Part shown: positions 1,751-38,893 of the stretch, piece by piece | Position numbering within the stretch: position 1 is the first letter of the stretch | Layout of the letters: each line of letters begins with the position of its first letter | NCBI GenBank assembly: GCA_013151445.1 | Contig: JAADIG010000019.1 | Location: 1 to 38,893 of the forward strand | DNA length: 38,893 nucleotides | Source of the DNA: Actinomycetota bacterium | GTDB taxonomy: Bacteria; Actinomycetota; Acidimicrobiia; Spongiisociales; UBA5794 | Direction: 5' to 3' | Notes under the pieces: model-generated | Database searches by the model: none | Seen by the model: only the letters and a program-made list of their open reading frames with translations | Told to the model about the DNA's origin: nothing | Made by a program: the position numbers and the translations under genes

Positions 1751-1808
1751 TCCCCGTTCTGGCGTCCATTTGGGCGATATATCGCCCAAATGGACGCCAG
1801 AACGGGGA
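1751..1808. repeat. Perfect 58-bp palindrome with no spacer
   Basis: Bases 1751-1779 are the exact reverse complement of 1780-1808, with the dyad centre inside GATATATC. The outer ends read TCCCCGTTCT and AGAACGGGGA. It lies between two divergent start codons (1715 minus, 1870 plus), so it is in the promoter region of both genes and cannot end either transcript. The CCGTTC-to-GAACGG span is 52 bp, almost the same as the 53-bp elements at 15527, 16522 and 36311, which suggests one structural family with different inner sequence. Confidence 0.9.
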
Positions 1809-15525: not shown

Positions 15526-15580
15526 TCCGTTCTTGTGACGTTTCGACGCAATTAGCCGCTCGAAACGTCACAAGAACGGA
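15526..15580. repeat. Palindromic element copy A (upstream of the nuclease gene)
   Basis: Left arm CCGTTCTTGTGACGTTTCGA (15527-15546), 13-base loop, right arm TCGAAACGTCACAAGAACGG (15560-15579); arms are perfectly complementary, with one extra A:T pair outside. It lies between two divergent starts (15488 minus, 15623 plus), so a terminator role is excluded for the flanking genes. The loop CGCAATTAGCCGC resembles that of copy B, giving both copies the same orientation. Confidence 0.9.
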
Positions 15581-15622
15581 AGGGGGGTTCCAACGGGGTG
15601 CCACATTGCACAAGATGGGACC

Positions 15623-16546
15623 ATGAACGAACGCACCTTCGGCGAGTTCGCCTCGCGACAGCATGGCATCGTGAACCATTCCCAGGCCCGCGCACTCGGG
15701 TGTTCAACAAGCGAAATCGCCGGGCGCGTTACGGCCGGTCGCTGGATCGCCCTTGGAAACGGTGTGTATCGAATAGCTGGCTCGCCGGGCAGCTGGCACC
15801 TCGACCTCTGGACCGCAGTCCTCCGAGGGGGAGAGGGTTCCGCCGTGTCGCACCGCGCTGCAGCACAGCTCTGGGATATGCGGAAGTACGGAGATCCAGT
15901 TGAGATTCTCACGCCGCGGCCGAGACGCTTTAGGACATCCGACGTCACCGTGCACACCTCGACAAAGTACGACGCGAGCGACATTGCCGACCTGGACGGA
16001 CTGCCGGTTACGACCGTGGAGAGAACGCTGATGGACCTGGGCGCGGTCAAGCACTGGCGACAAGTGGAACACGCTCTCGATACTGCGTTGAGGGACAACC
16101 TGACCACGCTGGGCGCCGTTGAACGGCGACTCTCGATCCGAAGGGGAAGGGGACGGCGCGGCGTCGGCGTGCTGGCAAGAATACTTGCGGACCGCCAAGA
16201 GGGACCGACGGTGGAGAGCAGCTATGAGCGCGAGTTTCTTCAGCTCGTTGAACCGCTCGCGATACCCCTACCCCACCCCCAACACAACATCAGAGAGGGA
16301 AATCAGTTGGTGGCGCGGGTCGACGCGGCGTGGCCCGATCTCCATGTCGCGGTGGAAATCGACGGACATCGCTTCCACGCAACCCGTGCGCAGCGTGCAG
16401 CTGACGCACGACGCCAAAACGAACTTGAGCTGCTCGGGTGGAAGGTCCTACGATTCACCACGGACCAGGTCCACACTGACCCCACGCTCGTGCGTCAAAC
16501 GGTACTCACAGCGCTCACCTCCCGTTCTTGTGACGATTCGACGTAA
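15623..16546 (+). CDS. AbiEi-like antitoxin domain fused to DUF559 nuclease-like domain
   Basis: 307 residues in two parts. The N-terminal half (about 1-165) is an AbiEi-type winged-helix region: ASRQHGIVNHSQARALG, then GVYRIAG, SHRAAAQLW, and LPVTTVERTLMDLG. The C-terminal half (about 195-295) is a DUF559/Vsr-like PD-(D/E)xK fold with Asp234 in ARVDAAW, Glu245 and Asp247 in VAVEIDG, and the closing GWKVLRFT strand. All expected acidic residues are present, so a DNA nickase or nuclease activity is plausible. No AbiEii toxin gene and no methyltransferase are adjacent. The gene is bracketed by palindrome copies A and B, and its last seven codons (residues 301-307) and stop lie inside copy B. 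The fusion is common in actinobacteria but its function is unknown. Confidence 0.82.
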   Translation: MNERTFGEFASRQHGIVNHSQARALGCSTSEIAGRVTAGRWIALGNGVYRIAGSPGSWHLDLWTAVLRGGEGSAVSHRAAAQLWDMRKYGDPVEILTPRPRRFRTSDVTVHTSTKYDASDIADLDGLPVTTVERTLMDLGAVKHWRQVEHALDTALRDNLTTLGAVERRLSIRRGRGRRGVGVLARILADRQEGPTVESSYEREFLQLVEPLAIPLPHPQHNIREGNQLVARVDAAWPDLHVAVEIDGHRFHATRAQRAADARRQNELELLGWKVLRFTTDQVHTDPTLVRQTVLTALTSRSCDDST

Positions 16547-16574
16547 CTATCACCTCGAAACGTCACAAGAACGG
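16522..16574. repeat. Palindromic element copy B (3' end of the nuclease gene)
   Basis: Left arm CCGTTCTTGTGACGATTCGA (16522-16541), loop CGTAACTATCACC, right arm TCGAAACGTCACAAGAACGG (16555-16574). It has one arm mismatch (A for T at 16536). Total length is 53 bp, the same as copies A and C. The left arm encodes the end of the AbiEi-DUF559 protein, and the stop TAA (16544-16546) is in the loop. On the other side the acyl-CoA dehydrogenase gene ends at 16586, so here the hairpin could also act as a bidirectional terminator. Confidence 0.9.
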
Positions 16575-34133: not shown

Positions 34134-36308
34134 ATGGCTCAGCCAACGTATAAGAACTTCACGGTCACGGTCGACGATGGCGTCGCGACGGTGCTCATGG
34201 ACAAAGCCGATAGTCCGGTCAACTCGATCTCACCAGACTTCGCTGGTGAACTCGCCGAAATCATCGAGCGTGTCGAGACCGACGGTGACATCAAGGCATT
34301 GGTTATCGGGTCGTCGAAACGCAACAACTTTCTCGCCGGAGCCGACATTCCCTGGCTGTTCACCCTTGAAGATTCCTCCGACGCGCTCGAACTGATCACC
34401 GCTGGACAGGGCCTTTTCCAACGCATCGAAGATCTCCACGTGAAGCACGGTAAGCCGGTCGTGGCAGCGATCGACGGGGCGTGTCTCGGAGGTGGCTGTG
34501 AGCTCGCTCTGGCAGCCAGTATCCGCGTCGCAACCGACAACAAGAAAACACTGCTCGGACAACCCGAGGTGAAGATCGGCGTCATCCCCGGGGGCGGTGG
34601 AACCCAACGGCTCCCCAAACTCGTCGGCATCACCACGGCGCTGGATCTCATCCTCACCGGGAAGAATATCCGCCCACACAAGGCCCGCAAGATCGGGCTC
34701 GTGGACGAGGTGTGCCCGTCGGAAGTGCTCATGGCGGTCGCAACCAAGCGCGCCACGTCGGCGATTGGTACCAAAGCGAAGGGGCCATCGGGCCTCGAAC
34801 GACTCAAGGGTCTGCTCTCACCTCAGGCAATCCAACAGCTCGCGCTTGAGGAGACCCCGGTCGGGCGAAACCTGCTGTTCTCCAAGGCCGAAGAAAAGCT
34901 GCTCGCGACAACCGGGGGCAACTATCCCGCACCGGTTGCTGCCCTGCGCGCCATCCGAGTTGGGATCGAAGACGGGCCTGACGCCGGATACGCGGCCGAG
35001 GTCGAGGAGTTCTCGAAACTCGTGACCTCACCGGAGGCGAAGGCTCTCATGTCGGTGTTCTTTGCATCGACCGAGCTGAAGAAAGACACCGGCATCGACA
35101 CCGACGCACTCCCGCGCGACGTCCAGAACGTGGGTGTCCTTGGTGCGGGACTCATGGGCTCGGGGATCACGACGGTGAACACAGTCAAGGCCGGTGTCCG
35201 CACACGACTCAAAGATGTCTCGGACGAGGGTGTTGCCAAGGGACTGGCCTACGTCCGGCGGGTGCTCGACAAACAGGTGAAACGACGCTGGATCACCAAG
35301 GGCGAGGCCGACCGCGCCATGTTCAAGATCACCGGAACGACCGACTTCTCCGGTTTCGGAAACATCGATGTCGTCATCGAAGCAGTGTTCGAGGACCTCG
35401 ACCTGAAGCGCTCGATGGTCGCCGAGATCGAAGCGGTCACCCCTGACACGACGATCTTCGCAACCAACACGTCATCGATCCCGATCACCCAGATCGCGAA
35501 AGGTGCCAAACGTCCGGGGAACATCATCGGCATGCACTACTTCTCACCCGTTGAGAAGATGCCACTGCTCGAGGTGATCGTCACCGACGCCACCGAGGAT
35601 TGGGTAACTGCGACGTGTGTGGCGCTGGGCAAACGCCAGGGCCTCACCGTCATCGTGGTTAGTGACGGCACCGGGTTTTACACCACGCGTGTCCTGGCGC
35701 CGTATATGAATGAGGTCGGCCACCTGCTCGAAGAGGGGGTCGCGATCGAGGCGATCGACACCGCGATGGTTTCCTGGGGATTCCCCGTCGGCCCCATCAC
35801 CCTCACCGACGAGGTGGGGATCGATGTCGGTGCCAAGATCGGCAAGATCATGCACGCCGCCTTCGGGGATCGTCTCAAGCCGGTCGCGGGATACGAGACA
35901 TTGGTCAAGGACGGACGTTATGGCCGCAAGAACGGTCGCGGTTTCTACACCTACACGGACGGCAAAAAGGGCGGTGTCGACGAGTCCGTGTACAAGGTTC
36001 TCGGAACACCCGCACGCATCGACATGGACGCCGAAGAGATACAGCGCCGTCTCGGGCTGTTGTTTGTCAACGAGGCAGCACGCTGTCTTGAGGAGGGCAT
36101 CCTCCGCTCGGCCAGGGACGGCGATATCGGTGCGATCTTCGGACTCGGGTTTCCACCGTTCCGAGGCGGACCGTTCGCCCACATCGACCACGTCGGGGCG
36201 GCAGCAGTTGTCGAACAGCTCGACGAACTCGCCGCCGAACATGGCGACCGCTATCAACCGGCCCAGATCCTCCGCACCCACGCCGCAGACGGAACAACGT
36301 TCCGTTAA
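34134..36308 (+). CDS. fadJ: Multifunctional enoyl-CoA hydratase / 3-hydroxyacyl-CoA dehydrogenase
   Basis: 724 residues, the alpha subunit of the beta-oxidation complex. The hydratase half has GACLGGGCELAL with Glu123 and GQPEVKIG with Glu145, the usual catalytic pair, plus IPGGGGTQRLPKLVG. The dehydrogenase half starts at about 332 with VGVLGAGLMGSGI for NAD; its dyad is His468 in GMHYFSPVEKM and Glu480. The C-terminal domain ends in PAQILRTHAADGTTFR. ATG 34134 follows TAGGAGCG; an upstream in-frame ATG overlaps the thiolase. The stop TAA (36306-36308) directly abuts palindrome copy C. The last five codons, the stop and the start of the palindrome are repeated exactly at the right edge of the window. 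Confidence 0.96.
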   Translation: MAQPTYKNFTVTVDDGVATVLMDKADSPVNSISPDFAGELAEIIERVETDGDIKALVIGSSKRNNFLAGADIPWLFTLEDSSDALELITAGQGLFQRIEDLHVKHGKPVVAAIDGACLGGGCELALAASIRVATDNKKTLLGQPEVKIGVIPGGGGTQRLPKLVGITTALDLILTGKNIRPHKARKIGLVDEVCPSEVLMAVATKRATSAIGTKAKGPSGLERLKGLLSPQAIQQLALEETPVGRNLLFSKAEEKLLATTGGNYPAPVAALRAIRVGIEDGPDAGYAAEVEEFSKLVTSPEAKALMSVFFASTELKKDTGIDTDALPRDVQNVGVLGAGLMGSGITTVNTVKAGVRTRLKDVSDEGVAKGLAYVRRVLDKQVKRRWITKGEADRAMFKITGTTDFSGFGNIDVVIEAVFEDLDLKRSMVAEIEAVTPDTTIFATNTSSIPITQIAKGAKRPGNIIGMHYFSPVEKMPLLEVIVTDATEDWVTATCVALGKRQGLTVIVVSDGTGFYTTRVLAPYMNEVGHLLEEGVAIEAIDTAMVSWGFPVGPITLTDEVGIDVGAKIGKIMHAAFGDRLKPVAGYETLVKDGRYGRKNGRGFYTYTDGKKGGVDESVYKVLGTPARIDMDAEEIQRRLGLLFVNEAARCLEEGILRSARDGDIGAIFGLGFPPFRGGPFAHIDHVGAAAVVEQLDELAAEHGDRYQPAQILRTHAADGTTFR

Positions 36309-36331
36309 CCCCGTTCTTGTGACGTTTGCAG
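36291..36331 (+). repeat. 41-bp direct repeat, copy 1 (fadJ 3' end plus palindrome arm)
   Basis: Identical, base for base, to 38853-38893. It spans the last five codons and stop of fadJ and the left arm of palindrome copy C. The upstream 32 bases of the two copies are also alike but diverged (22 of 32 identical by my count). Confidence 0.92.
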
Positions 36332-36365
36332 GGAATAGTTCGGTCGAAACGTCACAAGAACGGGG
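36309..36365. repeat. Palindromic element copy C (after fadJ)
   Basis: Left arm CCCCGTTCTTGTGACGTTT (36309-36327) pairs perfectly with AAACGTCACAAGAACGGGG (36347-36365). The CCGTTC-to-GAACGG span is 53 bp, as in copies A and B, although the inner bases differ (GCAGGG in place of CGACGC). It starts one base after the fadJ stop, so it could serve as its terminator, but no T-tract follows. Confidence 0.9.
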
Positions 36366-38593: not shown

Positions 38594-38850
38594 TCAGAAC
38601 GCCGGTTCCAAAAACGTGAGTCCTCCGGGGAGCACTGCGATCAAACCAGACCCGAAGCCGACTCCGATCGCACCTGCTTCGATGTAAGGCAGGGCATTCG
38701 ATTCCGCGATACCGCCGACGGCACTGCCAGCTCAGACGAATGTTGTGTCATCAGAGGAGACGATGCCTGCAATGCCTCTGCGAAAGCCGGTGGACCCGAG
38801 GCAGGACTGTTTGACACCGCCGACCCAGACCCTCCGCGACAACGCAGCGA
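38594..38850 (-). pseudogene. Decayed TIM-barrel aldolase-like frame (KDPG-aldolase-like C-terminus)
   Basis: On the minus strand, 38594-38731 encodes AGSAVGGIAESNALPYIEAG followed by AIGVGFGSGLIAVLPGG and a stop at 38594. GGI...NA..YI.AGA.GVGFGS is the C-terminal phosphate-binding pattern of 2-keto-3-deoxy-6-phosphogluconate aldolases (and more generally of phosphate-binding TIM barrels). An in-frame TGA at 38732-38734 (Trp by one change) interrupts it; the frame stays open upstream to about 38850 but loses resemblance. It therefore looks like a broken gene. Its convergence with an SDR and a lactonase fits a former sugar-acid catabolic cluster. The family call is tentative, and a sequencing error is possible near the contig end. 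Confidence 0.35.
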
Positions 38851-38870
38851 GTGGAACAACGTTCCGTTAA
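38821..38870 (+). pseudogene. Second fadJ 3' stub
   Basis: The frame ending at TAA 38868-38870 reads PTQTLRDNAASGTTFR, against PAQILRTHAADGTTFR at the end of fadJ: 11 of 16 residues match, the last five identical. Resemblance fades upstream of 38821, so only the extreme end of a fadJ-like gene is present. It may be a recombination scar or a chimeric contig end. Confidence 0.5.
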
Positions 38871-38893
38871 CCCCGTTCTTGTGACGTTTGCAG
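38853..38893 (+). repeat. 41-bp direct repeat, copy 2, with truncated palindrome (copy D)
   Basis: Exact match to 36291-36331, running to the last base of the window. From 38871 it is the left arm of the palindrome (CCCCGTTCTTGTGACGTTT) plus GCAG. The window ends inside the loop, so it cannot be seen whether the right arm follows. Confidence 0.9.

Follow-up and report, generated by a model that had tools for sequence, protein, structure and literature searches.

The window, by which we mean the whole 38,893-nucleotide stretch of Actinomycetota DNA analysed here, carries a gene for an AbiEi-DUF559 protein set between two palindromes of equal length, copies A and B (Table 1). The copies lie 995 bp apart with this single gene between them, and the unit they form has a molybdopterin oxidoreductase gene and an acyl-CoA dehydrogenase gene as its neighbours. 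An AbiEii (DUF1814) nucleotidyltransferase toxin partner is present neither in the unit, which has the one gene only, nor next to it. The original prediction, drawn from the window sequence, had described the bracketing of one gene by equal palindromes, the derivation of the gene's last codons from copy B and two further copies without the gene, and all of these proved correct at the positions tabulated; missing from it were the genome-wide copy number and the related palindrome near the left end, which belongs to a type seen on either side of other AbiEi-DUF559 genes. With up to two mismatches the arm CGTTCTTGTGACG has 8 matches in the window against 1.8 expected, a number reached in 0 of 100 shuffles. 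The 3' end of the fadJ-like gene and its palindrome (36258-36331) are duplicated 2.5 kb downstream (38820-38893; 86% over 74 nt), as if the palindrome had carried the gene tail along.

Table 1. Palindromes and bracketed gene in the window
Feature	Position	Strand	Remarks
Palindrome, related type, perfect, 58 nt (GTTCTGGCGTCC...GGACGCCAGAAC, also written TCCCCGTTCTGGCGTCC...GGACGCCAGAACGGGGA)	1751..1808	.	own gene not identified
Entire unit, palindrome-gene-palindrome	15527..16574	.	homology with the G100 unit stops at the outer palindrome edges
Copy A, 53-nt palindrome	15527..15579	.	49-nt core at 15529-15577; 43 nt upstream of the AbiEi-DUF559 gene start
AbiEi-DUF559 gene, 307 aa	15623..16546	+	predicted AbiEi-like domain, residues 1-192; predicted Vsr/EDxHD nuclease domain, residues 197-303
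Copy B, 53-nt palindrome	16522..16574	.	codes for the final seven codons and stop of the AbiEi-DUF559 gene (16523-16546)
Solitary palindrome copy	36311..36363	.	fadJ-like gene at 34134-36308, whose stop codon is 2 nt to the left
Beginning of another solitary copy	38873..38893	.	interrupted by the contig end; flank resumes in contig C133

The bracketed protein matches the Pfam families DUF559 (35.5 bits, cut-off 20.6) and MTES_1575 (39.1, cut-off 38.2) and falls just below the cut-off of 25 for AbiEi_4 (24.8 bits); it also has a PADLOC match to AbiEi (4.5e-31). An AlphaFold2 model (mean pLDDT 89.6) places its N-terminal domain close to the AbiEi antitoxin 6y8q (Z 12.9, rmsd 3.8, 183 residues aligned) and its C-terminal domain close to the EDxHD homing endonuclease I-Bth0305I (3r3p; Z 13.2, rmsd 2.4, 96 aligned), with further matches of the latter domain to 3hrl (Z 13.2) and Vsr (Z 10.9). 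Residues E202, D234, E245, D247, H252 and D261 are invariant among 24 homologues; their correspondence to the active site of I-Bth0305I is by fold, not by residue-by-residue superposition. These acidic and histidine residues and the predicted fold fit an active nuclease; cleavage is inferred from them, not demonstrated. The target on which I-Bth0305I is reported to form a dimer measures nearly 60 bp (PMC3943268), about the same, by our comparison, as the window-type palindromes.

The palindrome family and the nuclease clade

The palindrome has a 49-nt core, GTTCTTGTGACG-N25-CGTCACAAGAAC, of which the 3.07-Mb draft genome that includes the window (G000) contains 33 complete elements; arm matches number 35 and 35 genome-wide, against 4 and 2 for the reversed control. 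In all 33 the 12-nt arms are without variation and the spacer is 25 nt, centred approximately on RATWATY. Such counts are lower bounds, since draft contigs break at repeats. The inner 25 nt covary only weakly inside one genome, but between genomes the sequence changes and the pairing stays. Different half-sequences are combined among copies (L045 to L059, and 15527-16574 in the window), as if exchanged at the centre. According to gene calls from a simple codon model made for this analysis, no copy lies inside another gene, though some gene tails extend into a copy. Other close pairs of copies (L045, L047, L126/L158, L128, L067) enclose unrelated ordinary genes; only the DUF559 gene is thus systematically bracketed. 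The family is not one of integron attC sites, whose end-motif polarity is opposite on inspection of the copies, nor of DNA uptake sequences, the 12-mer being almost exclusively paired, nor of CGTC-tagged REPs, which have different stems and tags.

Across the order, the palindrome with up to three arm mismatches is found in 8 of 138 genomes and 4 of 61 genera. AbiEi-DUF559 matches occur in 93 of 137 order genomes, close relatives of the window protein in four of them only: G000 itself, G100 (76% identity), G115 (46%) and G116 (44-51%); all other relatives among the matches listed are at most 41% identical. Every one of the four clade genes is bracketed by palindromes, spaced 995, 994, 1011 and ~953 bp apart, the last figure being obtained through a 121-bp overlap between the two contigs across which the G116 gene is split. 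The arms are intact in these four genomes and decayed where the clade gene is absent: in G099, G006, G007 and G118 the palindrome copies are decayed or few, and a clade member is lacking. The comparison can be made within one genus, that of G099 and G100, where most of the 38 copies in G099 carry arm mismatches and nearly all of the G100 copies among those listed are perfect, with arms (GTTCTCGTGACG...CGTCACGAGAAC) that show a paired change on both sides. The expectation that solitary copies track the gene was thus borne out by the genome counts. One G100 contig, C29 (L169; 4,750 bp), carries two window-type copies, the rest of the G100 copies being of the CTCG type; its end overlaps contig C66 of G000, so it may be mis-binned.

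The window and G100 units align as a single homologous block (74% DNA identity over 1,047 columns) whose limits are the outer ends of the two palindromes; the flanks beyond are unrelated. The gene is accordingly not fixed by synteny. Relatives of the same genus have sites without the unit, as the original prediction had supposed might be found: in G007, of the window genome's genus, the flanking oxidoreductase and acyl-CoA dehydrogenase genes are present with 98 bp between matches, and G099 matches both flanks of the G100 unit (91% and 84%), with 58 bp replacing 1,067. At the same G100 site another genus, represented by G101, has 37 bp. The palindrome is absent from all three unit-free sites. 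Those of G007 and G099 hold other short hairpins, so the event may have been a replacement or a deletion, and whether they were never filled or have lost the unit is not settled; neither a target-site duplication nor a precise insertion junction was found.

Not all of the unit's history need involve movement. In G100, G115 and G116 the unit is preceded by the same aconitase gene (a name read from the translated sequence), so its descent has probably been vertical in part, with losses. Many solitary positions are common to G099 and G100, indicating slow turnover. At one orthologous place G099 (L248, C36) has a palindrome of another family, GTTCTTGCGTGAGCC...GGCCTCACGCAAGAAC, and G100 (L167, C73:55054) one of the window type. 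AbiEi-DUF559 paralogues that are 83% and 80% identical occupy different places within one genome (G408, G256). A tblastn search of plasmids and phages with the relative L196 gave no match.

Flanking repeats of AbiEi-DUF559 genes across the phylum

We assembled 92 AbiEi-DUF559 loci, from phylum-wide genomes (profile A1) and the order-wide matches, and compared the 220 nt upstream of each gene with its 3'-end region, setting the threshold at the 99th percentile of mismatched upstream/downstream pairs. A shared repeat was found at 63 of the 92 loci but at only 2 of the 178 genes taken as controls (Fisher p=3.8e-36), matching the forecast made for the flanks of such genes. A clear palindrome stands on both sides at 35 of the 63, and the full set of 63 takes in some non-palindromic direct repeats; the 29 loci without a shared repeat count against reading the unit as a selfish element. 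Scores, thresholds and window sizes were chosen while viewing the data, and the order-wide loci from which the idea was formed are among the 92, so the result is strong support and not a clean blind test. At order loci the upstream copy usually starts 85-125 nt before the start codon and the other copy sits at the stop codon.

The more alike two of the proteins are, the more alike their palindromes tend to be (Mantel r=0.50, p=0.0005, 52 loci), a relation that shared ancestry alone could in part produce. The palindrome is largely private to each gene lineage. On both sides of the second AbiEi-DUF559 gene of the window genome (C149) stands a palindrome of another sequence, GGCTTCTTGCGTAGC...GCTACGCAAGAAGCC, with 11 copies. 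The GTTCTTGCGTA-type pattern is present in 25 of the 50 genomes of the window's family (f1), with up to 54 copies per genome and 11 in the window genome. It is concentrated where AbiEi-DUF559 is present, as had been anticipated for solitary copies: 380 copies in the 37 genomes with such a gene against 3 in the 13 without, and at least four copies in 15 of the 37 against none of the 13 (p=0.005), without correction for genome completeness or relatedness. Copies of this type also form BIME-like tandem arrays at ~70-bp spacing (G010, contigs C13, C14 and C19).

Positions of the copies and other possible roles

Most copies lie near the ends of genes. A gene 3' end is found within 60 bp of 22 of 33 copies in G000, 31 of 38 in G099, 25 of 33 in G100 and 20 of 23 in genus g49 (L065-L088; genomes Ww195 and Ww501). 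In most g49 copies a TGA stop codon stands exactly 4 nt outside the 49-nt core, and in seven it does so on both sides. Some copies have divergent locations, seven in G000 lying between divergent genes, and no consistent T run follows the hairpin in the copies listed.

The protein might be an AbiEi-type repressor-nuclease that controls its own gene, the upstream palindrome being its operator and the 3' and solitary copies further sites of a regulon. AbiEi and Rv2827c do repress their own promoters via inverted repeats (PMC7319586), and the upstream copy begins at about -90 to -125 at most order loci. The prevalence of copies at gene 3' ends, many of them between convergent genes where a repressor would be idle, tells against autoregulation, which also leaves unexplained why homology ends at the palindromes and why there is a 3' copy at all; as the whole account we think it unlikely, without dismissing it. 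The same positions would suit bidirectional terminators, or hairpins at mRNA ends, that the host retains and of which the nuclease gene merely uses two, and both the placing of TGA codons in g49 and the presence of other hairpins at unit-free sites speak for this. Termination does not, however, require exact 12-nt arms on both sides and a fixed spacer, nor would it put copies between divergent genes or make them follow one nuclease clade and be missing from most related genomes, and we hold this explanation to be improbable. Either role could nevertheless hold alongside that of a selfish element.

A third possibility, sites through which a host protein organises the chromosome, with the nuclease gene an incidental neighbour, would account for the strict sequence, the fixed spacing and the positions conserved between G099 and G100; it is very hard to reconcile with so patchy a distribution over the order, with gene-private palindromes in other lineages and with the repeated bracketing of one gene family.

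Known systems and a proposed mode of spread

REP palindromes of enterobacteria and pseudomonads flank their own RAYT transposase gene and also occur alone. The original prediction had proposed an analogous system here. That part of it which concerns architecture, tracking of the clade, unit-free sites and non-fixed synteny stands; action of the protein on the palindrome and active spreading remain inference. The unit shares with REPtrons the placing of an enzyme gene between repeats that are found solitary as well, and resembles them further in its dozens of solitary intergenic copies with a 3'-end bias, in a repeat sequence private to the enzyme lineage and in occasional tandem arrays. It differs from them in its enzyme, a predicted Vsr/EDxHD nuclease with an AbiEi domain instead of an HUH/Y1 transposase, and in its repeats, symmetric 48-53-nt palindromes where REPs are 20-40-nt tagged stem-loops: in the copies as aligned, the GTTCTTGTGACG arms are symmetric and carry neither GTAG or a variant of it nor any unpaired tag. 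The Y1/RAYT family (PF01797) has no match in the 12 palindrome-bearing genomes searched, against 5 of 14 control genomes, and such a transposase was rejected as the driver on that ground.

To our knowledge, nucleases of this superfamily do not transpose alone, and on that general ground the nuclease could be cargo of an element moved by another, unseen transposase; no result here supports this, and since the unit has no other gene, PF01797 is absent from those 12 genomes and the other close copy pairs enclose unrelated ordinary genes, we give it almost no credence.

Other known systems share parts of the arrangement. TIRYTs (Di Nocera 2013, PMC3733652) also place an enzyme gene between long self-complementary repeats of moderately abundant families, but their proteins retain an HUH motif and a catalytic tyrosine, neither of which was found here. 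I-Bth0305I is the nearest solved fold for the nuclease domain, which meets the EDxHD homing endonuclease criterion of catalytic fold plus acidic and histidine residues, and it has a comparably long, dimeric target; it is encoded by a phage intron, has no AbiEi domain, and flanking palindromes or dispersed solitary copies are not described for it in the review PMC3943268. The AbiEi type IV antitoxins (S. agalactiae AbiEi, Rv2827c) share the N-terminal fold and inverted repeats near the promoter, but not the extra nuclease domain, the second palindrome at the 3' end or the dispersed copies, and the unit fails the criterion of an operon with an adjacent AbiEii toxin gene. The CGTC-tagged REPs of alphaproteobacteria are likewise palindromic repeats without a known transposase; their stems are of 8-9 bp with an unpaired CGTC tag. 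No paper that joins AbiEi and DUF559, or that connects DUF559 to inverted repeats or palindromes, was found in the open-access library searched, whose scope excluded preprints and subscription papers; a DUF559 paper on Caulobacter VsrA has no palindrome, and the arm sequences appear only as primer-like strings in unrelated papers.

We therefore favour, with reasonable though far from complete confidence, the reading of the unit as a small selfish element, spread via repair, in which a nuclease gene is combined with a pair of the palindromes that its product recognises. Behind it stand the architecture and its recurrence, the clade-specific co-occurrence of gene and palindrome, the unit-free sites, the block boundaries and the predicted fold. 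A dimer of the protein would bind the ~50-bp palindrome, its AbiEi-type DNA-binding domains contacting the conserved outer arms, its nuclease parts lying near the A/T centre, and would cut or nick the palindrome, or the hairpin that it forms; for both binding and cleavage we have only the fold and the conservation to go by. Host repair may then copy the palindrome, or palindrome, gene and palindrome together, to new sites in a homing-like manner, a step inferred from the distribution, the unit-free sites and the block boundaries. Solitary palindromes would be non-autonomous derivatives, settling chiefly just behind stop codons, sites at which they are nearly harmless and perhaps act as terminators, and the upstream copy may double as the operator of the AbiEi-DUF559 gene. 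Against the selfish-element reading, we know of no strand-transfer activity in a hydrolytic nuclease, nor is there a clear reason why dozens of copies in the host should stay uncut.

The bracketed gene and the dispersed palindromes suggest an undescribed kind of selfish repeat element, one that in its architecture works like REP-RAYT and whose newness rests on the failure of the RAYT criterion and on an enzyme class without a known part in such repeats. We think it slightly better than an even chance that the AbiEi-DUF559 proteins of Actinomycetota are a large, unrecognised palindrome-spreading class of selfish elements, each lineage multiplying its own ~50-bp palindrome through cutting and host repair, and an independently evolved counterpart of REP-RAYT in which a Vsr/EDxHD nuclease replaces the HUH transposase. 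If these genes do spread palindromes, a large set of unannotated intergenic repeats would be explained, and the DUF559/AbiEi fusion, now filed as an antitoxin or unknown protein, would gain a role. Evolution would then have arrived at the REP-RAYT arrangement a second time, and the family would be a natural source of nucleases paired with ~50-bp targets, their specificity diverging from one lineage to the next.
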